From NCBI GenBank assembly GCA_020444245.1, contig JAHLLI010000012.1:62001-126000 (forward strand): a stretch of DNA of 64,000 nucleotides, in the 5' to 3' direction. The notes below the pieces were generated by a model. That model did not search any database and had not been told where the DNA came from. It saw only the letters and a program-made list of their open reading frames with translations. Position numbers and translations under genes: made by a program. Shown in pieces: positions 9,169-49,512 of this stretch; position 1 is the first letter of the stretch, and every line of letters begins with the position of its first letter. This stretch comes from Actinomycetales bacterium. Its GTDB lineage: Bacteria; Actinomycetota; Actinomycetes; Actinomycetales; Cellulomonadaceae.

Positions 9169-9498
9169 TCACGCCCCTCCCTCGTGGAGCCGGTCGATGC
9201 GTTCGGCGAGGAAGCTCCACGTCCGCCAGAACTCCTCGAGCTGCTCCCGCCCCGCGTCGTTGAGCGAGTAGACCTTGCGCGGCGGCCCCTTCTCCGACGG
9301 GACCTTCTCCACGTCCACCAGGCCGCGCTGCTCGACCCTGACCAGCAGCGCGTAGACGGTGCCCTCGGCGATGTCGGCGAAGCCTTGCTCGCGCAGTGAC
9401 GCGGTGATCTCGTAGCCGTAGGCCGGGCGGGCCGACACGATCGCCAGGACGATGCCTTCCAGCGTGCCCTTGAGCATCTCGGTCATCTGCTTGCCCAA
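9169..9498 (-). CDS. PadR-family transcriptional regulator
   Basis: A 109-residue winged-helix repressor of the PadR family, short type (family 2). LKGTLEGIVLAIVSARPAYGYEI starts the first helices, EGTVYALLVRVEQRGLV is the recognition helix and first wing strand, and RKVYSLNDAGREQLEEFWRTW is the dimerisation helix. The TTG start is chosen because GGGAG precedes it and family members begin MGKQMTEMLKG; an ATG four codons later is the alternative. A perfect inverted repeat at 9513-9531 is the likely autoregulatory site. PadR proteins commonly repress drug exporters; a related half-site lies before the DrrAB-like exporter at 24-25.7 kb. Confidence 0.9.
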   Translation of the reverse strand: MGKQMTEMLKGTLEGIVLAIVSARPAYGYEITASLREQGFADIAEGTVYALLVRVEQRGLVDVEKVPSEKGPPRKVYSLNDAGREQLEEFWRTWSFLAERIDRLHEGGA

Positions 9499-9512
9499 GG
9501 TCGGCTCCCAAC

Positions 9513-9531
9513 TACTCAGCCTCACTGAGTA
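9513..9531 (-). promoter_or_regulatory. Probable PadR operator
   Basis: TACTCAG-CCTCA-CTGAGTA is a perfect 7-base inverted repeat with a 5-base spacer, 15 bases upstream of the padR start. Size and position suit a PadR dimer and autorepression. The flanking ACTACTCA half-site recurs before the ABC exporter at 25783-25830. Confidence 0.65.
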
Positions 9532-9686
9532 CTGGGACAACCGTAGCGTGGAAGGGCCGCCCCACACCTGGGCATGGCACAGCGCGCGTCCAGCATGCAA
9601 GACGGCTGCATCTGTCGGGGCCACCGCCCCCGTACCAGCCACGAGGTCCGGAACAGGCCGGGCCCACGTGCACGACGGAGAGTCCC

Positions 9687-9986
9687 ATGCTGAAGAAGAT
9701 CGCGATCGTCACCGCCGCCGTCGCCCTGGGGGCAGGTCTCGGGGCCGCGCCGGCCGCCGCCGCACCGGCCAACGAGGGCGCGGCGTGCGTCCAGGCCGGC
9801 ATCGGAACGCTCAAGGACCTCGGCCTCCTCCAGGCCGCAGCCCAGAAGAAGATCGACTACTCGACGCTGGCGGATCCCACGAGCGGCCCCATCTTCGCGG
9901 ACCTGCCGGAGGGCAGCTACCTCTCGCTCGGCCAGGTGGTCAAGCTGCACAAGACCAACCCCGACCTCTTCGCCTGGTGCCGCTGA
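9687..9986 (+). CDS. Small secreted protein of unknown function
   Basis: A 99-residue protein. Residues 1-26 form a Sec signal peptide (MLKKIAIVTAAVALGAGLG, then several AxA sites). The mature part is about 73 residues with two cysteines that could form one disulfide (near ACVQAG and at the C-terminal WCR). GGAGAG precedes the ATG. It stands alone between divergent padR and a terminator. No family is recognised; nothing suggests an enzyme. Confidence 0.75.
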   Translation: MLKKIAIVTAAVALGAGLGAAPAAAAPANEGAACVQAGIGTLKDLGLLQAAAQKKIDYSTLADPTSGPIFADLPEGSYLSLGQVVKLHKTNPDLFAWCR

Positions 9987-10009
9987 CCGCGTGACCCAGC
10001 CCGACCGCG

Positions 10010-10046
10010 CCGCGGTCTCGCGGAGCTCCCGCCCGCGAGACCGCGG
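10010..10046. terminator. Strong hairpin terminator
   Basis: CCGCGGTCTCGCGG (10010-10023) pairs perfectly with CCGCGAGACCGCGG (10033-10046) around a 9-base loop. It lies between the small secreted protein and the convergent CPBP protease gene and can act for both strands. Confidence 0.7.
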
Positions 10047-10128
10047 GGCGAGCGGTGACCAGTGCTCCGAACTGGAGGGTGGCCTCGAAGGTCCAGGGCA
10101 CGGTCCCCGAGCGGTGCTCGATCCCAGA

Positions 10129-10959
10129 TCAGTCGGCCGGGCCAGGGGCCACCTCGAGCTCGGCGATCAGCCCCACGCGCCGCCGCACCAGCCACAACCC
10201 GTACCCCGCCGCGAGCGCGCCCAGCGCCACGTTGACAGCGCCGTTGGCCAGCAGGTCGGCCGTCGCGACGCGGGTGTCCTCCGTCGGGGCAGCAGCCTGG
10301 ACGGCGTTGGCCAGGTCCATCAGGAAGTGGACGACGATCACCGGCCAGATGGTGCCGGTGGCCAGCACGACGGCCCCGAACCCGATGCCGACCCCGACCG
10401 TCATGAGCACCTGCGCCCCGACGGTGATCGGGGGGCTGTCGTTCGCGAGGTTGACCAGGTGCATCAACCCGAACAGCACCGCGGACCCGAACAGCGCAGG
10501 TCGCAGCCCCCGCGCGAGCAGCACCCGCAGCACCACCCCGCGGAACACGCCCTCCTCGCCGAACGCGACGGTCGCCACGCCGAAGACCCCGAGCGCGACC
10601 TTCCAGCCGGGCCGGTCGGCGAGGCCCGCCCCGAAGACCGCGGGCAACGCCGGCAGCACGAGCAGCGGCAGCGCCGGTCCCACCCGCTTCCAGGTGGGTG
10701 CGGTGAGGAAGCCGGCCGGGCGCCACAGCCCCCAGACGCTGAGGATCACGACCGCGACGACGACCCGGGTCAGGTCGATGCCGAGCACCACGACCCAGCC
10801 CGCGGTCGGCTCCCCCAGGGCCGAGGGCAGCGCCAGCCACAGCGCCAGGCTCGCCACGTAGACGGCCGAGGCGAGGACGGCGGCCCCGGCCGGGTGGCGG
10901 GCGGGCAGGACACGCCAGGTGGGAGCGACGGCGACGGGCGAGCCGGGCGGGACGGTCAT
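10129..10959 (-). CDS. CPBP-family intramembrane metalloprotease
   Basis: A 276-residue membrane protein with about seven to eight hydrophobic helices and the three CPBP (Rce1/Abi) motifs: EEGVFRG (EExxxR), FGLMH (FxxxH) and HFLMD (HxxxD/N). These residues form the intramembrane active site in the family. Members cleave membrane-associated proteins or peptides; the substrate here is unknown. The ATG follows GAGGAGA. It stands alone, downstream of the ECF42 sigma gene on the same strand, separated by about 90 bases, so read-through is possible. Confidence 0.87.
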   Translation of the reverse strand: MTVPPGSPVAVAPTWRVLPARHPAGAAVLASAVYVASLALWLALPSALGEPTAGWVVVLGIDLTRVVVAVVILSVWGLWRPAGFLTAPTWKRVGPALPLLVLPALPAVFGAGLADRPGWKVALGVFGVATVAFGEEGVFRGVVLRVLLARGLRPALFGSAVLFGLMHLVNLANDSPPITVGAQVLMTVGVGIGFGAVVLATGTIWPVIVVHFLMDLANAVQAAAPTEDTRVATADLLANGAVNVALGALAAGYGLWLVRRRVGLIAELEVAPGPAD

Positions 10960-13495: not shown

Positions 13496-13612
13496 CGCGA
13501 TCGCTTCCTTCTGCTCACGCAGCCCGTTCGGGCCGCACCTGGGGCCAAGGACGATTGACAGGACATTCTGACACGGGGAGGCTGGATGCACGGCTCCCTC
13601 GCGGAGGGTCCG

Positions 13613-13781
13613 ATGAGTGCAGGTGTCCGGTCGCTCGAGCCGCCGGTCGACGGCTCCCGGGCCGGGCTGCGGCCGTTCGCCGTCGGCGTCGACGTGGTCG
13701 ACGTGGCGCGGCCGCCTTCCGCACGACCAGACACACGCCGTCGCGGTGGTCGTGGCGGCCGGGAGCGGTGATCCGAGATGA
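13613..13781 (+). pseudogene. acpS: Internally deleted holo-ACP synthase (acpS) remnant
   Basis: One frame encodes RPFAVGVDVVDVAR (about 13670-13711), matching the AcpS N-terminal signature, normally close to VGIGIDVVDVARF with the metal-binding Asp. From about 13710 the next frame encodes RLPHDQTHAVAVVVAAGSG, matching the AcpS C-terminus, normally SLSHxxxxAVAVVV. Its TGA (13779-13781) overlaps the ATG of the ligase gene as ATGA, as expected for the first gene of the operon. Around 60-80 central residues and the frame are lost. The two halves together are about 55 residues against roughly 120 in functional AcpS, so it cannot be active. Confidence 0.5.
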
Positions 13782-15550
13782 CCCCCACCCAGATCCACAA
13801 GACGCCGGCCGACTGGCGGGTCCCCCCGCTGCTGCCGCCCGACCCCGCACCGTTCAGCTGGGACGAGGCGCGCACCTGGGTCGACGGCCTGCCCGGCGGC
13901 GCCGGGCTGAACATCGCCCACGAGGCCGTGGACCGGCACGCCGCCGGCCCGCGCCGCGACCACGTCGCGCTGCGCTGGCTCGGGCGGCACGGCGAGCGCG
14001 TGGACCTCACGTACGCCGAGCTGCGCCGCCGCACCAACCGCTTCGCCAACGTGCTCGGCACCCTCGGCCTGACCCGGGGCGACGTGGTGTTCGTGCTCAG
14101 CGGGCGGGTGCCGGACCTGTACGTCGCGGTGCTCGGCACGCTCAAGGCGGGCTGTGTGGCCAGCCCGCTGTTCTCCGCCTTCGGCCCGGAGCCGGTGCGC
14201 CAGCGCATCGAGATCGGCCAGGGCAAGGCCCTCGTCACCACCAAGGCCGCCTATGCGCGCAAGGTCGAGGGCCTGCGCGGCCGGCTGCCCTCTCTGGACC
14301 ACGTGCTGCTGGTCGACGTCCCCGCTGACGCCGAGACCCCCGACGGCACGCTCAGCCTGGCCGCCTTGATGGCCGAGGCGTCAGACGAGTACGCCGTCGC
14401 CGACACCGACCCGGAGACGCCCGCGCTGCTGCACTTCACCAGCGGCACCACCGGCACCCCGAAGGGTGCCGTGCACGTGCACGAGGCGGTCGTGATGCAC
14501 GAGGCGACCGCCCGGTTCGCCCTGGACCTGCACCCCGACGACGTGTTCTGGTGCACCGCCGACCCCGGCTGGGTGACCGGCACGTCCTACGGCATCATCG
14601 CGCCCCTGTCCCGTGGGGTGACGAGCATCGTCGACGAGGCCGACTTCGACGCCGACCGCTGGTACGCGATCCTCCGCGACGAGAGGGTGACGGTCTGGTA
14701 CACCGCACCGACCGCGGTCCGGCGGCTGATGCGCGCCAGTGGTGGCCGGATCGAGGGGCTCGACGCGCTGCGGTTCGTGGCCAGCGTGGGCGAGCCGCTC
14801 AACCCCGAGGCGGTCAGCTGGGGCCTGGAGGCCCTCGGGCTGCCCATCCACGACACGTGGTGGCAGACCGAGACCGGCGGGATCATGATCGCCAACACGG
14901 TCGCCTCCGACATCCGCCCCGGGTCGATGGGGCACCCGCTGCCCGGCGTCGAGATCGCCGTGCTGCGCCGCGGCCCCGCCGGGGTGGTCGTCACCGACGG
15001 CGAGGTCGAGCAGGTGGGCCCGGACGTCGAGGGCGAGCTCGCCCTCAAGCCCGGCTGGCCGTCGATGTTCCGCACCTACCTGGGCCAGCCGGAGCGCTAC
15101 GCGGCGTGCTTCAAGGGCGGCTGGTACTGCACCGGTGACCTGGTCACCCGCGACACGGACGGCTACGTGTGGTTCCTGGGCCGGGCGGACGACGTGATCA
15201 AGTCCTCCGGCCACCTGATCGGCCCGTTCGAGGTCGAGTCGGCGCTGCTCGAGCACCCGGCGGTCGCCGAGGCCGGCGTGATCGGCCTGCCCGACCCGAT
15301 GGCCGGCGAGATCGTCAAGGCGTTCGTCGTCCTCGCTCGCGGGGTGCTGCCCGAGGTCGAGCTGCAGCGCGAGCTGATCGGGTTCGGCCGCAAGCGGCTG
15401 GGCGCCGCGGTGGCGCCACGCGAGCTCACCTTCGTCAGCGACCTGCCGCACACCCGCAGCGGCAAGATCATGCGCCGCCTGCTGCGCGCCCGGGAGCTGG
15501 GCCTGCCGATCGGCGACCTTTCCACCCTGGAGGGAGAGGAGCCGACATGA
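13778..15550 (+). CDS. Acetyl/short-chain acyl-CoA synthetase-like ligase
   Basis: A 590-residue AMP-forming ligase of the ANL superfamily, close to AcsA. It has the P-loop-like [18 protein letters not shown] (about 218-235), the [10 protein letters not shown] motif (about 362-371) in which the Trp restricts the acyl pocket to acetyl or propionyl, the hinge [14 protein letters not shown], and the catalytic lysine in [11 protein letters not shown] near the C-terminus. The start overlaps the AcpS remnant and the stop overlaps E1alpha (ATGA in both cases), so it is coupled to the dehydrogenase genes. It would activate acetate or a similar acid; transfer to CoA is the family reaction, and transfer to the ACP encoded downstream is a hypothesis. 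Confidence 0.88.
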
Positions 15551-16539
15551 CCACCCTCGACCTGAGCCTGGACCTGGACCGCGACGAGGCGCTGCGCCTG
15601 CTCACCCAGATGGTGCGGATCCGGCGCTTCGAGGAGCGCTGCGTCGAGCTGTACAGCGCCGAGAAGATCCGCGGCTTCCTGCACCTGTACATCGGCGAGG
15701 AGGCGGTCGCGACGGGCGTCATGGGCGCGCTGCGGCCGACCGACGCCGTGGTGGCCACCTACCGCGAGCACGGCCACGCGCTGGCCCGCGGCGTCAGCGC
15801 CCGGTCGATCATGGCCGAGATGTTCGGCGTCGTGGAGGGCTGCTCGCGCGGCCGCGGCGGGTCGATGCACCTGTTCGACGCCGAGCAGCGCTTCTACGGC
15901 GGCAACGCCATCGTGGCCGGTGGGCTGCCGCTCGCGGTCGGGCTCGGTCTGGCGGACGCGATGAGCGGGCGCGACGCGGTCACGGCGTGCTTCTTCGGCG
16001 AGGGGGCGGTCGCCGAGGGCGAGTTCCACGAGGCGATGAACCTCGCGGCGCTGTGGTCGCTGCCGGTGGTGTTCTGCTGCGAGAACAACCTCTACGCGAT
16101 GGGCACCGCGCTCGCACGGTCGGAGTCCCAGACCGACCTCGCCCTCAAGGCTTCGACCTACCAGGCGACCTCCTGGGCGGTGGACGGCATGGACGTGGTC
16201 GCCTGCGCCGCCGCGGGGCGGCGCGCCGTGGACATCGCGCGCTCGGGCGGCGGCCCGGTGTTCCTCGAGCTGCGCACCTACCGGTTCCGCGCGCACTCGA
16301 TGTACGACCCCGAGCTCTACCGCAGCAAGGAGGAGGTCGAGCGCTGGCGCGAGCGCGACCCGATCGAGACGTTCGCGACCCGGGCCGAGGAGGCCCACCT
16401 GCTCGACGCGAGCGACCGGGAGCAGATCGAGACCGACGTCGCCGCCGAGATCGACGACGCGGTCGCCTTCGCCGAGGCAGGGACGCTCGAGCCGGTCGAG
16501 GACCTCACCCGCGACGTGTACCGGAGGGCCGTGCGATGA
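15547..16539 (+). CDS. Alpha-ketoacid/acetoin dehydrogenase E1 component, alpha subunit
   Basis: A 330-residue thiamine-diphosphate-dependent E1alpha. It carries the TPP-binding motif [20 protein letters not shown] ending in ENNLYAMGT (about 157-187), and the phosphorylation-loop-like [19 protein letters not shown]. Length fits heterotetrameric PDH, acetoin or branched-chain E1alpha. It decarboxylates an alpha-keto acid (or cleaves acetoin) and passes the acyl group to the E2 lipoyl arm. Overlaps with the ligase and E1beta genes show translational coupling. The SRGRGGSMH segment also occurs in acetoin dehydrogenases; substrate choice between pyruvate and acetoin is not settled. Confidence 0.9.
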
Positions 16540-17570
16540 CCGCGACGACGAAGGGACGCAAGACCACCGCCGCGGACGCCGCACCCGCGACCGTGACCAT
16601 GACGTTCCGCGAGGCCTACCGCGAGGCGCTGCGCGACGCGCTGCACCGGGACCCCACCGCGTTCCTCATGGGCGAGGACGTCGGCCGGTACGGCGGCTGC
16701 TTCGGGGTGAGCCGGGGCCTGTTGGAGGAGTTCGGGCCCGAGCGGGTGCGCGACACCCCGCTGTCGGAGTCCGGCTTCACCGGGGCCGGGATCGGGGCCG
16801 CGCTGGGCGGCATGCACCCGATCGTCGAGGTGATGACCGTCAACTTCAGCCTGCTCGCGCTGGACCAGATCGTGAACAACGCGGCGACGATGCTGCACAT
16901 GTCCGGCGGGCAGCTCAACGTGCCCCTGGTGATCCGGATGACCACCGGAGCCGGTCGCCAGCTGGCCGCGCAGCACTCGCACAGCCTGGAGGGCTGGTAC
17001 GCACACATCCCGGGCATCCGGGTGCTCGCACCGGCGACGCTGGCCGACGCACGCGGCATGCTCTGGACCGCCCTGCAGGACCCCGACCCGGTGCTGATCT
17101 TCGAGAACGGCGCGATGTACGGGGTCTCCGGGGAGCTCGCCGCCGACGCCGGCCCGGTCGAGATCGACCACGCGGCCGTCCGCCGCGAGGGCACCGACGT
17201 GACGGTCGTCGCCTACGGCGGGACCCTGCCGCGCGCGATGGACGCCGCCGAGGAGCTCGCTGCTGACGGGATCTCCGCCGAGGTGGTCGACCTGCGCACC
17301 CTGCGCCCGCTGGACGACGCGACGATCATCGCCTCGGTCGGCCACACCCACCGGGCGGTCGTGGTCGACGAGGGCTGGCGCAGCGGTGGACTGTCCGCCG
17401 AGGTGGTAGCCCGGATCGTCGAGGGCGCCTTCTACGAGCTCGACGCACCGGTCGTGCGGGTCTGCGGCGCCGAGGTGCCCATCCCCTACGCCCGGCACCT
17501 CGAGCAGGCCGCGGTGCCGCAGGTGGACGACGTGGTGCGTGCCACCCGGGAGCTGATGGGTCATGGCTGA
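16536..17570 (+). CDS. Alpha-ketoacid/acetoin dehydrogenase E1 component, beta subunit
   Basis: A 344-residue transketolase-like E1beta. Residues 1-20 are a Lys/Ala-rich tail; the domain starts at [15 protein letters not shown], with [12 protein letters not shown] and [20 protein letters not shown], the strongly conserved pyrimidine-binding region with its catalytic glutamate. It pairs with E1alpha to form an alpha2beta2 unit. It overlaps E1alpha by 4 bases and E2 by 8. An ATG 21 codons downstream (MTFREAY) could be the true start, but the overlap favours the first. Confidence 0.9.
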
Positions 17571-18879
17571 GTTCAGGATGCCGTCGCTGGGTGCCGACAT
17601 GGACGAGGGCACCCTGGTCAGCTGGTTGGTCGGCGTGGGCGACCACGTCGAGCGAGGCCAGGTGGTCGCCGAGGTGGACACCGAGAAGTCCGTGATCGAG
17701 GTGGAGACCTTCGACACCGGCACCGTCACCGAGCTGCTGGTGCAGGAGGGCGAGAGGGTGCCGGTGGGCACCCCGCTCGCGGTCATCGCGGAGGTGGCCG
17801 AGGCGGCCGGACCGGTCCCACGCCGGACGGCGACCCGCACGCGTCCGGCTGCGAAGGCGAGCACGAAGCCCGCGCCGAAGGCAGGCACGAAGCCGGCCGC
17901 CAAGCCGAGGACCAAGCCCGCGGCGACGCCGGCCGCCCCGGCGATGGCAGCCGCGCGGGGCACCGCTCGCGTCGCGGCCTCTCCCCTGGCCCGCCGTCAC
18001 GCGGCTGCGCTCGGGGTGGACCTGTCCACCGTGGCGGGCACCGGCCCGGGCGGCGCCGTGACGACCAGCGACGTCGAGGCCGCCGCGCACGCCACGGCGC
18101 TCGCCACGAGCCCGAGCGCCGCACCGGCCCGGACCGCGGAGCCCGAGCACACCGCGGCCGTCGTCGACGAGCCCGCCCCCGTGGCCCCGGTGGTCCCACG
18201 CAGCGGAGCCGAGCGCCAGGCCTCGATGCGGCACGCCGTCGCCGAGGCGATGGCCAGGTCCAAGCGGGAGATCCCGCACTACTACCTGGCCGCCGACGTC
18301 GACATGGCCCGCGCGACCCACTGGCTCGAGGCGCACAACGCGTCGGTGCCGGTGACCGAGCGTGTGCTGGTCGCCGCGCTCCAGCTCAAGGCGACGGCGT
18401 CGGCCCTGCGCGCGGTACCGGAGCTCAACGGGCACTGGGTCGACGGCGCGCACCGCCCGGCCGAGCACGTGCACCTGGGTGTGGCGATCGCGCTGCGGGG
18501 CGGCGGGCTCGTGGCCCCGGCGATCCACGACGCCGACCAGTTGACCGTGCCCGAGGTCATGGCCGCGCTGCACGACCTGGTCGCGCGGGTGCGGGCCGGC
18601 AAGGTCCGGTCCTCGGAGTACGCCGACCCGACGGCCACCGTGACCAACCTCGGCGACCAGGGCGTCGACGTGGCGTACCCGGTGATCAACCCGCCCCAGC
18701 TCGCGATGGTCGGCTTCGGGCGGGTCCGCGACCGCCCGTGGGCCGTCGACGGGATGCTCACCGTGCGACCCGTGCTCACCGCCACGCTCGCGGCCGACCA
18801 CCGAGCGACCGACGGGCGCCGCGGCGCGACCTTCCTGGCCGCGCTCGACGACCTGCTCCAGCGACCCGACGACCTGTGA
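17563..18879 (+). CDS. Dihydrolipoamide acyltransferase (E2)
   Basis: A 438-residue E2. Lipoyl domain at 1-76 with the lipoyl lysine in [10 protein letters not shown]; an Ala/Pro/Lys-rich swinging linker (about 85-135); a peripheral subunit-binding domain (about 140-178, [15 protein letters not shown] and [14 protein letters not shown]) for E1/E3; a second flexible linker; and a catalytic domain with the active-site motif [11 protein letters not shown] near the C-terminus, where His and Asp match HxxxDG. It moves the acyl group from lipoyl to CoA in known complexes. No E3 gene is nearby, so dihydrolipoamide dehydrogenase must come from elsewhere. The ACP gene follows 9 bases later and may be an alternative acceptor (inference). 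Confidence 0.92.
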
Positions 18880-18888
18880 GGAGCTGCC

Positions 18889-19137
18889 ATGGACGACGCG
18901 GAGCTGCGGGACACGGTGCTGAAGGTGCTGGGCCAGGTGGCGCCCGAGGTGGACCTGGACGACGTCGAGCCCTCGGAGGACCTGCGCGAGCAGTTCGACC
19001 TGGACTCGATGGACATCCTCGACCTCGCCATCGGGCTGTACCAGGCCACCGGCATCGAGGTGCCCGAGCAGGACTACGCCCAGGTGGTCACGGTGGACGG
19101 CGCGGTCGAGTACCTCGCCACGCACGCCGTGCACTGA
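18889..19137 (+). CDS. Stand-alone acyl carrier protein
   Basis: An 82-residue acidic four-helix acyl carrier protein. The phosphopantetheine serine lies in FDLDSMDILDLAIGL (Ser at about 43), matching the DSM motif. It follows E2 by 9 bases with GAGGAG as ribosome-binding site, so it belongs to the ligase/E1/E2 operon, not to a fatty-acid synthase locus; no ketosynthase is nearby. It needs a phosphopantetheinyl transferase, yet the acpS at the head of the operon is broken, so another must act in trans or the ACP stays in the apo form. A specific acyl-carrier role for this complex is inference from gene order. Confidence 0.9.
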   Translation: MDDAELRDTVLKVLGQVAPEVDLDDVEPSEDLREQFDLDSMDILDLAIGLYQATGIEVPEQDYAQVVTVDGAVEYLATHAVH

Positions 19138-23799: not shown

Positions 23800-24009
23800 T
23801 CAGGACCCCGGCGCGTACTTGAACGACAGCTGGAGCCGCACGCGGTAGACCAGGCCGCCGTCGTCCCCGACCACGATGTCCTGCTTGGCCACCTCCGCGA
23901 CCCGCAGGTCGCGGAGCGAGCCCGCCGCGGTGTGGATGGCCTCGGCCGCCGCCTCCTCCCACGAGGTGCTGCTCGTCCCGATGACGTCGATCACTCGGTA
24001 CACGCTCAT
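23800..24009 (-). CDS. Dodecin
   Basis: A 69-residue dodecin: MSVYRVIDVIGTSSTSWEEAA, then the ADVAKQD-like segment RVAEVAKQDIVV and C-terminal YRVRLQLSFKY. Dodecins form hollow dodecamers in the cytoplasm that store or buffer flavins (FMN/FAD) or CoA. It is a single gene convergent with the DUF202 pair. Flavin versus CoA binding cannot be decided by eye. Confidence 0.92.
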   Translation of the reverse strand: MSVYRVIDVIGTSSTSWEEAAAEAIHTAAGSLRDLRVAEVAKQDIVVGDDGGLVYRVRLQLSFKYAPGS

Positions 24010-24085
24010 GCGGACCCCCGTCGCTCCGTTGCGGACCTCCCCATGGTGACCCCGTGCGGCCGCCGCGGCCACAGGAGGCGGACCG

Positions 24086-24847
24086 CTAGGCGATCCGACG
24101 CCGGTAGGCGAGCATCGCCAGCCCGTACGCGACCACCAGGATCCCGGCGCACCACGCCAGCGCGACCCAGATCGCCCCGCCGACCGGCTGCTGGGCGAAC
24201 AGCGCGCGGATCGCATCCACGATCGACGTCACCGGTTGGTGCTCGGCGAAGGCGCGCACCGGGGCCGGCATCGTGTCGGTGGGGACGAACGCCGAGCTGA
24301 GGAAGGGCAGGAAGATCAGCGGGTAGGCGAACGCGCTCGCGCCGTCGACCGTCTTCGCGGACAGGCCCGCGATCACCGCGAGCCAGGTCAGGGCGAGCGT
24401 GAACAGGACGAGGATCCCGGCGACCGCGAGCCACGCCGCGAGCCCGGCCTGCGAGCGGAACCCCATGAGCACGGCGACCCCGACGACCACCGCGAGCGAG
24501 ACGAGGTTCGCGACCAGCGAGGTCAGCACGTGCGCCCAGAGCACCGACGGCCGGGCGATCGGCATGGACTGGAACCGCTCGAAGATCCCGTCCTTGAGGT
24601 CCAGGAACAGCCGGAACGCGGTGTAGGAGATGCCCGACGCGATCGTGATGAGCAGGATCCCGGGCAGCAGGTAGTCCACGTACGGCTGTGACCCCGCCCG
24701 GATCGCGCCGCCGAACACGTAGACGAACAGCAGCAGCATCGCGATCGGCATGATCGCCGTCGTGATGATGGTGTCCGGGCTGCGCAGCACGTGGCGCAGG
24801 GACCGCCCCAGCAGGACGGTGGTGTCGCGGAAGGTTCGCGTGGTCAT
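24086..24847 (-). CDS. DrrB-like ABC-2 exporter permease
   Basis: A 253-residue ABC-2 type permease with six hydrophobic helices and the family motif FLDLKDGIFERFQSMPIARP (about 81-100) and PLIFLPFLSSAFVPTDTMP near 185-203. With the ATPase gene 10 bases upstream it forms a DrrAB-type drug or lipid exporter. Substrate unknown. The promoter region carries an inverted repeat with PadR-like half-sites. Confidence 0.9.
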   Translation of the reverse strand: MTTRTFRDTTVLLGRSLRHVLRSPDTIITTAIMPIAMLLLFVYVFGGAIRAGSQPYVDYLLPGILLITIASGISYTAFRLFLDLKDGIFERFQSMPIARPSVLWAHVLTSLVANLVSLAVVVGVAVLMGFRSQAGLAAWLAVAGILVLFTLALTWLAVIAGLSAKTVDGASAFAYPLIFLPFLSSAFVPTDTMPAPVRAFAEHQPVTSIVDAIRALFAQQPVGGAIWVALAWCAGILVVAYGLAMLAYRRRIA

Positions 24848-45347: not shown

Positions 45348-45530
45348 TTCGGCTGGCACCACCAGCGTAGGCCGCCGACGCCCGGATGTCCACAATTCAT
45401 GGGATGACTCGCCCGCGAGGTGGCACCCCAGCCTCCGCCGGCCCGGCCGGACGGGCGACACTCCCCTGATGACGGCGTGAGGTTCCGGAGCTACTGTCGG
45501 GGCACGGCAGGTCTTCAAAGGGGAAGCGCT

Positions 45531-47021
45531 ATGCCACACGACAAGCCGAACATCCTCGTCCTGTGGGGCGACGACATCGGGATCACCAACCTGAGCTGCT
45601 ACTCGGACGGTCTGATGGGCTACCGGACGCCCAACATCGACCGGGTCGCCACCGAGGGCGCACGGTTCACCGACTACTACGGCGAGCAGAGCTGCACCGC
45701 CGGCCGAGCGGCGTTCATCACCGGCCAGAACCCGTACCGCACCGGCCTGACCAAGGTCGGCATGCCGGGGGCGGACCTCGGCCTGCGGGACGAGGACCCC
45801 ACCATCGCGACAGCGCTCAAGGAGCTCGGGTACGCGACCGGGCAGTTCGGCAAGAACCACTTCGGGGACCGCGACGAGTTCCTGCCGACCGAGCACGGCT
45901 TCGACGAGTTCTTCGGCAACCTCTACCACCTCAACGCCGAGGAGGAGCCCGAGGATGCCGACTACCCGGACCCGGAGGAGTTCCCGAACTTCCGCGACCG
46001 CTTCGGGCCGCGCGGCGTCATCCACAGCTGGGCGGACGGGCGCGTCGAGGACACCGGTCCGCTGACCAAGAAGCGCATGGAGACGATCGACGACGAGATC
46101 ATCGACCCCGCGCAGCGCTTCATCCGTGACGCCGTCGACGCCGAGCAGCCGTTCTTCCTGTGGTTCAACACCACCGGGATGCACTTCCGCACCCACATCG
46201 CGGAGGAGATCCGCGGCCAGGCCGGTCGGTGGCAGTCCGAGTACCACGACGCGATGGTCGAGCACGACAAGCGGATCGGCCGGATGCTCGACCTGCTCGA
46301 CGAGCTGGGCATCGCCGACGACACGATCGTGCTCTACAGCACCGACAACGGCCCGCACATGAACACCTGGCCGGACGGCGGCATGACGCCGTTCCGCAAC
46401 GAGAAGAACTCCAACTGGGAGGGCGCGTACCGGGTCCCGTCCCTGGTCAGGTGGCCGGGGAAGATCGCGCCGGGGACCGTGCTCAACGGCATCGTCAGCC
46501 ACAACGACTGGTTCGTGACGCTGCTGGCCGCGGCGGGCGAGCCCGACATCGCCGCGAAGCTCAGGGCCGGGCACGAGCTGGCCGGGACGCGCTACAAGGT
46601 CCACCTCGACGGCTTCAACCAGCTGCCGTACCTCACCGGTGAGGTGGACAGCAGCCCGCGCCGGTACTTCTTCTACGTGTCCGACGACGGGGACCTCACA
46701 GCACTGCGGTTCGACAACTGGAAGCTCGTGTTCCTCGAGCAGCGTGCGAAGGGGACGCTCCAGGTCTGGGCCGAGCCGTTCACCGAGCTCAGGGTGCCCA
46801 AGATCTTCAACCTCCGCACCGACCCGTTCGAGCGGGCCGACGTCACCTCGAACTCCTACTGGGACTGGGTGCTCTCGCGGGCCTACCTGGTGGTGCCCGC
46901 GCAGGCGTTCGTCGCCGAGATGGCGGCGACCCTCGGCGAGTTCCCGTCCCGCCAGGAGCCGTCGAGCTTCACGATCGGGAAGATGCTGGAGAAGCTCAAG
47001 GCCGGCATGCCGAGCTCGTGA
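45531..47021 (+). CDS. Arylsulfatase (cytoplasmic, Cys-type)
   Basis: A 496-residue type I sulfatase. Metal-binding acidic pair in LWGDDIGITNLSC; active-site formylglycine motif CTAGR within EQSCTAGRAAFITGQ (about 55-69), fitting C-x-P/A-x-R; later LYSTDNGPHMNTWPDGG holds the Asp/Asn metal ligands. There is no signal peptide, so it acts in the cytoplasm on an imported sulfate ester. The Cys must be oxidised to formylglycine; an anSME-type radical-SAM maturase is encoded 1 kb away on the other strand. The next small gene overlaps its stop as GTGA. Confidence 0.93.
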   Translation: MPHDKPNILVLWGDDIGITNLSCYSDGLMGYRTPNIDRVATEGARFTDYYGEQSCTAGRAAFITGQNPYRTGLTKVGMPGADLGLRDEDPTIATALKELGYATGQFGKNHFGDRDEFLPTEHGFDEFFGNLYHLNAEEEPEDADYPDPEEFPNFRDRFGPRGVIHSWADGRVEDTGPLTKKRMETIDDEIIDPAQRFIRDAVDAEQPFFLWFNTTGMHFRTHIAEEIRGQAGRWQSEYHDAMVEHDKRIGRMLDLLDELGIADDTIVLYSTDNGPHMNTWPDGGMTPFRNEKNSNWEGAYRVPSLVRWPGKIAPGTVLNGIVSHNDWFVTLLAAAGEPDIAAKLRAGHELAGTRYKVHLDGFNQLPYLTGEVDSSPRRYFFYVSDDGDLTALRFDNWKLVFLEQRAKGTLQVWAEPFTELRVPKIFNLRTDPFERADVTSNSYWDWVLSRAYLVVPAQAFVAEMAATLGEFPSRQEPSSFTIGKMLEKLKAGMPSS

Positions 47022-48087: not shown

Positions 48088-49512
48088 TCAGCCTTGCTCG
48101 GCTGCCCGCGCGCCCGTCGCACGACGACCCCGTTCGGTGACCGGACGGCGAGGGATGCCGACCTCCGGCGGCTCCGGCCCCGGACCGGAGCCGGGCCGTG
48201 CGCCGCGTCGCGCCGTCTCCTGGTTCCAGTCGTCGACGAGCTGCTGCCCACCCCGGGCGAGGATCTCCATCACGTCGGTGGCCGGGTGCCCGCGCCGCAT
48301 CAGCCCGAGCATGATCTTCATGGGCACGTCCACGTGGTGGAAGAAGTCCTTGAACCCGGCGCACAGGTAGTTCAGGCCCGGCTCGCCGTCCGGCGTCGTC
48401 AGGAACCGGTTCTTCGGGCACTCGCCGTGACATGCGAACCGGACGTCGCACTCGCGGCAGTAGGCCGGCAGCGAGTCGCGCTCGTCCTGGCCGAACGCGT
48501 GCTGGCGCCGGCTGGAGACCAGGTCGTCGATGGAGGTCTCGCCGATGTTGCCCACCAGGTACTCCGGGTCGACGAAGTGGTCGCACGAGTACAGGTCGCC
48601 GTTGTGCTCGAGCGCCATGCCGAGCCCGCACGTCTCGTCGAAGACGCACATCCCCGAGCTGCCCAACCCCGCCCAGTTGCGGGCCGCGGCCTCGAAGGTC
48701 TGCACGAACACCCGGCCGACGTCGTGCTGCACCCACTCGTCGAACACGGTGGTGAGGAAGGTGCCGAACTGCTCGGGCCCGACCGACCGCGACGAGGCGT
48801 GCAGGCCGCGCAGGTCGGCCGGTGCACCGTGCTCGTCGACCCGCTCGACCACCGGGATGAACTGCATCCACGCGGTGCCCACCTCGTCCCGCAGGAACCG
48901 GTAGACCTCCAGCGGGTGGTCGCCGTTGACCCGGTTCACCGTGGTCAGGACGTTGTGCTCGACGCGGTGCTTCTGGAGCAGCCGCAGCCCCCGCATCACC
49001 TGGTCGAACGTCCCCCGGCCGGCCTTGTTGACCCGGAACGCGTCGTGCAGCTCCCGCGGGCCGTCGATGCTGATCCCCACGAGGTACTCGTGCTCGGCGA
49101 GGAACGCGCACCACTCGTCGTCGAGCAGGGTCCCGTTGGTCTGGATCGTGTTGAGGAACGTCATCCCGGGGCGGCGGTAGCGGTCCTCGAGCGCGACGAC
49201 CTTCCGGAAGAAGTCCAGGCCCATCAGCGTCGGCTCGCCGCCCTGCCAGGCCACGGTGACCTGCGGGGTCCGGTGCTGGTCGATCAGCGAGCGGAGGTAG
49301 GTGTCGAGCACCTCGTCCGACATCCGGAACGTGTCGCCCTCGTACAGCTGCTCCTTGTCCAGGAAGAAGCAGTAGCTGCACCCGAGGTTGCAGATCGCTC
49401 CGGTGGGCTTGGCCAGGACATGGACGCTCGGCGGCGACCAGGCGCGCTCGCCGCCGTCCCCGCCGGACGGGCGGACCGTGGGCGTGGGCAGCGGCGTGCG
49501 GGAGTCCGTCAC
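48088..49512 (-). CDS. Radical-SAM anaerobic sulfatase-maturating enzyme (anSME type)
   Basis: A 474-residue radical-SAM protein. The S-adenosylmethionine cluster motif is CNLGCSYC (about 41-48) in KPTGAICNLGCSYCFFLDKE, followed by QGGEPTLMG. The C-terminal SPASM region has CGLGMALEHNGDLYSCDHF and CRECDVRFACHGECPKNR plus a last Cys in NYLCAGF, binding two further Fe-S clusters. Such enzymes oxidise an active-site Cys or Ser of sulfatases to formylglycine without oxygen. The target is presumably the sulfatase at 45531. The C-terminal 60 residues are a disordered Pro/Arg-rich tail unlike typical anSMEs. Confidence 0.92.
   Translation of the reverse strand: MTDSRTPLPTPTVRPSGGDGGERAWSPPSVHVLAKPTGAICNLGCSYCFFLDKEQLYEGDTFRMSDEVLDTYLRSLIDQHRTPQVTVAWQGGEPTLMGLDFFRKVVALEDRYRRPGMTFLNTIQTNGTLLDDEWCAFLAEHEYLVGISIDGPRELHDAFRVNKAGRGTFDQVMRGLRLLQKHRVEHNVLTTVNRVNGDHPLEVYRFLRDEVGTAWMQFIPVVERVDEHGAPADLRGLHASSRSVGPEQFGTFLTTVFDEWVQHDVGRVFVQTFEAAARNWAGLGSSGMCVFDETCGLGMALEHNGDLYSCDHFVDPEYLVGNIGETSIDDLVSSRRQHAFGQDERDSLPAYCRECDVRFACHGECPKNRFLTTPDGEPGLNYLCAGFKDFFHHVDVPMKIMLGLMRRGHPATDVMEILARGGQQLVDDWNQETARRGARPGSGPGPEPPEVGIPRRPVTERGRRATGARAAEQG

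Follow-up and report, generated by a model that had tools for sequence, protein, structure and literature searches.

The 64,000-nucleotide stretch analysed here (the window; NCBI GenBank assembly GCA_020444245.1, contig JAHLLI010000012.1, positions 62,001 to 126,000, from a Cellulomonadaceae genome) contains an operon of five genes that joins an acetate ligase and the E1 alpha, E1 beta and E2 components of a pyruvate-type dehydrogenase to a small acyl carrier protein (ACP), and the same cassette recurs in both Actinomycetota and Pseudomonadota. Its ACP belongs to a distinct subfamily that keeps the serine expected to carry phosphopantetheine, and in the relatives its neighbourhoods are of a low-oxygen type. 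The reading that we favour, tentatively and with somewhat less than even confidence, is that of a mobile low-oxygen cassette in which acetyl-ACP is a channelled intermediate common to the E2 and the ligase; that acetyl groups pass to the ACP, which way the ligase runs and that oxygen controls the cassette are all points that we infer from sequence and gene context. The features concerned are these:

13541..13552, strand unassigned: GGGGCCAAGGAC, a conserved block, loosely like what we take to be a DosR-type box, 5' of the acpS remnant (three-region alignment)
13613..13771, + strand: acpS remnant, 52 codons (holo-ACP synthase N-terminus, then out of frame; alignment to locus L007)
13778..15550, + strand: AcsA-type acetate--CoA ligase (AMP-forming), 590 aa (NF003313, 841.6 bits, cut-off 729)
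15547..16539, + strand: E1 alpha, pyruvate type (TIGR03182, 443.7, cut-off 393.85)
16536..17570, + strand: E1 beta (NF006667, 414.2, cut-off 321)
17563..18879, + strand: E2 acyltransferase, with lipoyl (PF00364), E3-binding (PF02817) and catalytic (PF00198) domains
17686..17688, + strand: codon for the predicted lipoyl lysine, K42 of E2 (T-x-K columns invariant in a 23-row E2 alignment)
18889..19137, + strand: acyl carrier protein, 82 aa, net charge -18 (PF00550, 31.7 bits, E 1.9e-7)
19006..19008, + strand: codon for the predicted phosphopantetheine serine, S40 of the ACP (the DSM serine; serine in 30/30 aligned family ACPs)

The first-pass annotation had described a tightly coupled row of ligase, E1 alpha, E1 beta, E2 and a DSM-type ACP, and this description holds: all five genes lie on the + strand, with junctions from ligase to ACP of -4, -4, -8 and +9 bp. 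It had also placed the operon at 13613-19137, of which the end and the five genes stand, whereas position 13613 opens the acpS remnant and the ligase starts at 13778. Like the pyruvate dehydrogenase (PDH) complex, the cassette has E1 subunits that score above their model cut-offs and an E2 with lipoyl, E3-binding and catalytic domains; it differs in its added acetate ligase and ACP, joined in some cases by acpS, in having no E3, and in an E2 that falls under the model cut-offs. The E2 (DTEKS at residue 39, DHRATDG at residue 412) scores highest against TIGR01349, at 275 bits with a cut-off of 445, and lies under the cut-off of every NCBIfam E2 model listed, the acetoin-type model giving 84.7 bits with a cut-off of 307; its structure model is poor (mean pLDDT 53.5) and was not used. 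No E3 gene lies within the operon in the window, as had been noted at first pass, and the lpd gene of this genome, which is above its family cut-off, is found outside it at C29:144639-145988. Because neither a match to the curated E2 model nor an E3 gene within the operon was found, we do not place the cassette within the classical PDH complex. We regard it as a variant of the 2-oxoacid dehydrogenase systems, with known parts in an assembly for which the open-licence papers searched gave no description.

The ACP is likewise apart from the curated families. It lies under the cut-offs of all 13 NCBIfam ACP models listed (best 36.6 bits, cut-offs of at least 65), and four of its relatives reach at best 40.1 against a curated ACP model with a cut-off of 66. 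Its AlphaFold model (mean pLDDT 92.8), in which S40 opens a predicted helix at 40-54, matches solved ACPs of complex I, of the MmpL5/Emb complexes, of fatty acid synthase (FAS) and of polyketide synthase (PKS).

The evidence that the five genes belong together comes from their recurrence. A scan of genome contigs gave four relatives of the ACP, in two Actinotalea, an Acidimicrobiaceae metagenome-assembled genome (MAG) and a Microthrixaceae MAG, and all four have ligase, E1 alpha, E1 beta and E2 upstream in the same order, with the ligase and E2 in pieces at L010. Thirty plasmid records match the ACP, and the five genes stand in order in 15 of the 16 examined; the hosts are Sinorhizobium, Azospirillum, Methylocystis, Leisingera, Tropicibacter, Sulfitobacter, Ciceribacter, Cupriavidus, Burkholderia, Paraburkholderia, Photobacterium and Rhodococcus, spanning alpha-, beta- and gammaproteobacteria as well as Rhodococcus. 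The sixteenth record, L053 (R. opacus pLPS8), is degenerate, keeping the ACP with fragments of E1 beta and E2 at 9378-10267, and its stretch also contains Hsp20 and ClpB.

Across 296 Actinomycetota genomes, 11 places match the ACP at 67 bits or more and are set apart from the next, at 48.7. Apart from the window's own there are ten: six have all five genes (at L063 with the ligase in two pieces), two lie at contig ends with an adjacent E2, one has an E2 fragment, and one (G025:C58) is without an E2 and adjoins a CBS-BON gene, which makes nine of ten with an E2, whole or partial, directly upstream. In four stretches fetched around weaker ACP matches as controls (L065-L068), none has an E2 match above 50 bits. 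Searching instead with the E2 at 1e-90 returned eight of the 296 genomes, the window's own included, and the ACP is present in all eight (hypergeometric 3e-14, to be read knowing that the events are not independent, since E2 and ACP are adjacent); the limit is one of our own choosing, which left the E2 genes of G078 and G194 undetected and could hide weaker E2 genes that lack an ACP. Since other classes and another phylum show the same gene order, and with co-occurrence of E2 and ACP in 8/8 genomes, chance adjacency of the ACP is ruled out; the first-pass annotation would have given up its idea had the ACP been adjacent in this genome only, and the order proves to be conserved across Actinomycetota and Pseudomonadota. 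In the MAG G025, family ACPs lie beside CBS-BON genes (L056 9544-10562, L057 8884-10167), one of them with a lone E2 fragment.

Within the genus, the ACP is present in three of 19 genomes (the window's own, L007 and L008), which makes the cassette accessory. In a tree of 23 concatenated cassettes, the four from Burkholderiales (L042, L045, L050, L070) group at support 1.0 with actinobacterial L047, L054, L060 and L061, that is, with the Rhodococcus cassettes and two further actinobacterial ones (L060, L061) that are perhaps Mycobacteriales-like; this grouping argues for transfer of the cassette between phyla, in line with its plasmid locations. The 23-row alignments used here and below omit L010, whose ligase and E2 are broken up, the degenerate L053, the partial L055-L058, L063 and L064, for which the ligase or E2 calls are short, and L103, which lacks an ACP. 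In six loci (L044, L046, L048, L049, L051, L052) E1 alpha and E1 beta are fused in one frame of 665-677 aa.

The coupling of the ACP to the enzymes is close at the level of gene layout. The E2 and ACP genes share 4 bp in 20 of 27 loci and are separated by 2-12 bp in the other seven, on our own choice of starts; the later ACP starts in the records of L046 and L048 would give 18/27 overlaps. Of the 25 loci measured for ligase and E1 alpha, 24 show an overlap, and the exception is L010 with its broken ligase. Fusion of the E2 and ACP genes was sought and rejected, as the E2 keeps its own stop in each of the 27 loci. ACP distances track those of all the partners and most closely those of the E2 (r 0.79, 23 loci), with partial correlations of 0.34 for E2, 0.24 for the ligase, 0.21 for E1 beta and 0.07 for E1 alpha, a correlation to which we give little weight because, of the four enzymes, the E2 is also the one that varies most.

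An intact acpS heads the operon in Actinotalea lenta (L007) and Actinotalea sp. (L008), giving the order of acpS, ligase, E1, E2 and ACP that the first-pass annotation had proposed to look for; the L008 AcpS passes TIGR00516 (61.7 vs 59.8), and its gene overlaps the ligase start. In the window, the frame that opens at 13613 encodes 52 aa without a Pfam match and aligns with the N-terminal part of the full acpS of L007: 139 bases match at 89% and a further 117 at 96%, and between the two stretches the window lacks 267 bp that L007 has. This gap could be a real deletion or a fault of the one assembly. The genome has two other phosphopantetheinyl transferase genes, both above the Pfam cut-off, that could activate the ACP. 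Given the conserved order of ligase, E1, E1, E2 and ACP in Actinomycetota and Pseudomonadota, together with the acpS genes of L007 and L008, it is well supported that the ACP belongs functionally to the complex.

As for chemistry, the E1 and E2 sequences score as pyruvate type rather than acetoin type. The lipoyl lysine of the E2 and the His of its DHRxxDG motif are kept in 23/23 rows; the Asp of that motif is replaced by His or Gly in three of the 23 (L041, L044, L046), the catalytic His being kept, and the window is not among them. The nearest solved structure to the ligase is the AcsA-type acetyl-CoA synthetase 9g79 (E 8.5e-153), presumably from Bacillus subtilis. The acetate-pocket positions of the ligase, which we take to be the equivalents of Salmonella Acs W309, V310, T311, V386, W413 and W414, are invariant in 23/23 aligned cassette ligases and the catalytic lysine is kept, so that its substrate is probably acetate. 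We also considered whether the ligase had lost a residue for binding coenzyme A (CoA), and rejected this at the one position checked: the equivalent of Salmonella Acs R584, which we assume to be a CoA contact, is arginine in 23/23. With pyruvate-type E1 and E2 on one side and an acetate-type ligase on the other, both enzymes would converge on one acetyl thioester.

On the reading that we favour, the cassette would be a horizontally mobile one that serves oxygen-limited or dormant cells. E1 alpha-beta and E2 would make up a second pyruvate dehydrogenase that draws its E3 from the housekeeping gene; E1 would decarboxylate pyruvate and charge the lipoyl arm of the E2, whose core would then acetylate the ACP on its phosphopantetheine arm. 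The ligase would interconvert acetyl-ACP and acetate, either using ATP in acetate salvage or making ATP from AMP and pyrophosphate (PPi) under energy shortage, and acetyl-ACP would be held apart from the CoA pool. We know of no coupling of either 9g79 or the Syntrophus enzyme Acs1 to an ACP, though no search was aimed at this. According to PMC4992975, the AMP-forming Acs1 of Syntrophus can run in the acetate-forming, ATP-making direction, from acetyl-CoA, AMP and PPi, and such a direction would suit energy-starved cells. A more far-reaching version of this idea, possible in our view and yet rather doubtful, is a CoA-free acetyl route in which the PDH physiologically yields acetyl-ACP, the ligase cashes it for acetate and ATP (or reloads it), and the whole is an interphylum cassette for survival of oxygen limitation. 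PDH is the textbook source of acetyl-CoA; should the ACP indeed accept the acetyl group, central metabolism would have an unusual alternative to CoA, and the cassette bears on the question of whether a protein, in place of CoA, can hold the acetyl groups of primary metabolism. A widespread PDH variant with a near-constant ACP and acetate ligase in hypoxia or dormancy islands would also offer a direct test of how aerobes sustain their carbon flow and ATP supply when oxygen is lacking.

The closest precedents that we found for such a transfer are in secondary metabolism, among them a naphthyridinomycin system whose counterparts are, we believe, named NapB and NapD. As far as we know, the first-pass annotation was right that an ACP is part of no classical complex of this kind. 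E2-like priming of carrier proteins, in place of CoA, is nevertheless proposed for pepteridine (plu2796), pristinamycin and naphthyridinomycin in a section of PMC5384830, where the pepteridine E3 is thought to be borrowed. These systems share with the cassette PDH-like E1 and E2 and a phosphopantetheine carrier (same section of PMC5384830), and in both a carrier gene with its serine adjoins E1 and E2. The cassette differs from them in its free-standing ACP and acetate ligase, in having no nonribosomal peptide synthetase (NRPS) or PKS gene, in its low-oxygen-type neighbourhoods and in its wide spread. Full-text searches of open-licence papers, with the terms chosen, showed no description of the cassette, most subscription papers lying outside their scope.

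The surroundings of the cassette in relatives point to low-oxygen persistence, a context that the first-pass annotation had not anticipated. Of 11 annotated plasmid loci, 10 have a Usp or Hsp20 gene annotated no farther than 10-12 kb away (a figure that has no plasmid control), and CBS, DUF2267, BON, FtsH or Lon are present at several. The cassettes of L046 and L047 have ppsA and pfkB nearby, that of L047 also a GAF sensor kinase and a response regulator, and Crp/Fnr regulators are found near L044 and L046. The matches listed for 71 neighbour open reading frames (ORFs) of five unannotated proteobacterial loci (L049-L051, L069, L070) include at least two Hsp20, two CBS, two phosphoenolpyruvate (PEP)-synthase-like proteins, one PfkB and one BON. 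In Actinomycetota, at least six Usp are among the matches listed for 90 neighbour ORFs, against 0.3 expected from the density in the window's own genome; these ORFs were hand-picked from L059-L064, L103, L105 and L106, cassette and shadow ORFs being excluded. A PEP-synthase-like gene adjoins the ligase at L062, and a NiFe hydrogenase adjoins the cassette in two genomes of one actinobacterial genus. Table 2 of PMC4981469 gives, for the Burkholderia lxa locus, Usp, Hsp20, PpsA, PfkB, acetate kinase/Pta and two-component or Crp/Fnr regulators, and the same kinds of gene adjoin cassettes in relatives; that table has no PDH or ACP genes, and the cassette would be an extra module of similar islands. 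A passage of PMC6127331 compares the lxa locus with the DosR regulon, which the neighbour sets of the cassette resemble as well.

Upstream sites give a related picture in proteobacteria. A copy of TTGAYNNNNRTCAA, allowing one mismatch, is found no more than 150 bp from the ligase start at 7 of 13 proteobacterial loci, compared with 0.38 in random windows of the same loci; none of 300 random draws reaches seven, and six of the seven sites lie 59-96 bp upstream. The scan was run at three settings and two window lengths, each result exceeding all but at most one of 300 draws, and the ligase starts of unannotated loci are our own estimates. We take TTGAYNNNNRTCAA to be the FNR/ANR-type consensus, which FixK and DNR sites resemble. 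For the 14 Actinomycetota loci, four overlapping DosR-type patterns match at 3, 2, 2 and 9 loci against 0.32, 0.17, 0.17 and 3.0 in random windows, counts that 1, 6, 8 and 2 of 500 random draws reach. In an alignment of Actinotalea-type upstream regions, the window reads GGGGCCAAGGAC where the other two read GGGACCAAGGGC, and the window, L007 and L008 have a conserved GGGRCCAAGGRC block in common. The likeness of GGGGCCAAGGAC to a DosR-type box is our own supposition, and the window copy fails the loose DosR-type pattern.

Several observations weigh against a low-oxygen cassette that works through acetyl-ACP. The arginine at the CoA contact is retained in all 23 ligases, the closest relative with a solved structure bears the name acetyl-CoA synthetase, and the sequences give no sign of CoA exclusion or of lost CoA use. 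In G025:C155 the four enzyme genes stand without an adjacent ACP, two ACPs lying elsewhere in that genome. The one published lxa gene table checked (Table 2 of PMC4981469) does not have the cassette, and the annotated neighbours of L048 include neither Usp nor Hsp20. The Actinomycetota loci show no enrichment of FNR-type boxes (3/14 vs 1.98 in random windows), and the DosR-type sites were sought post hoc with overlapping patterns, the window not being among the matching loci. In the window itself, the Usp, Hsp20, CBS and PEP-synthase families are found in 0/19 scanned ORFs outside the operon, and a Usp search of the genome gave none on the window's contig.

The alternative to be taken most seriously, though we think it unlikely, is that this is an ordinary second PDH that uses CoA, with an acetate ligase, and that the ACP is a structural or regulatory subunit and carries no acetyl group. 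ACPs have such roles in complex I and in the MmpL5-AcpM and Emb-AcpM assemblies, and ACPs inside these complexes are among those that the model resembles, as it also resembles ACPs of FAS and PKS; the ligase and E1 score as canonical families, and the retained arginine would fit. The invariant serine and the dedicated acpS of two cassettes suggest, on the other hand, that the phosphopantetheine arm matters, although such an arm can also serve structure. It is improbable, but worth stating, that acetyl-ACP, or an ACP acetylated from CoA, primes the synthesis of lipid or polyester as an electron sink at low oxygen, a relative of the dedicated lipid step envisaged at first pass. Thin hints of this come from L061, where a WS/DGAT gene and two KAS III-like genes adjoin the ACP, from L059, with a ketosynthase gene a few kb from the ACP, and from L052, with fabI, phosphotransacetylase and acetate kinase upstream; yet no single lipid gene stands beside more than one locus among the neighbour matches listed (the plasmid tables being incomplete), elsewhere the five genes occur without lipid genes, and the relatives' surroundings point rather to low-oxygen persistence.

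Two further readings have little chance of being right. Octanoyl-ACP is the substrate of LipB, the E2 requires lipoate, and the ACP gene overlaps or abuts that of the E2, so the ACP might be a dedicated octanoyl donor for E2 lipoylation; this seems very improbable, as no lipoate-synthesis gene is listed in the annotated plasmid neighbourhoods and the host's other ACP-like frame (92 aa, on C33) could serve. Slighter still is the chance of an acetoin dehydrogenase operon with an acetate ligase. Such operons share the E1-E1-E2 architecture and can carry a ligase, but the cassette has an added ACP, its E1 alpha passes the pyruvate model, and its E2 reaches 275 bits on the PDH model compared with 84.7 on the acetoin one.

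The cassette in the window is an extra set in its genome, which has further E1/E2-like genes on C40 and C12 and a 42%-identical ligase homologue at C6:8417. At C26:58079-59458, about 2.5 kb before the window, lies a lipoamide-dehydrogenase-like gene (373 bits, under the lpd cut-off), in whose match one TGA counted may be the gene's own stop, and there is a further fragment at C26:51720. Near the cassette of L060, an erythromycin-esterase domain is fused to a phosphoribosyltransferase domain (892-2934), and esterase-family neighbours are also present at L054 and at least once among the matches listed for the proteobacterial neighbour set. Elsewhere in the window are a dodecin (23800-24216), a sulfatase (45420-47021) and, on the strand opposite to the sulfatase, a radical SAM/SPASM protein (48088-49512) that is perhaps a sulfatase maturase.

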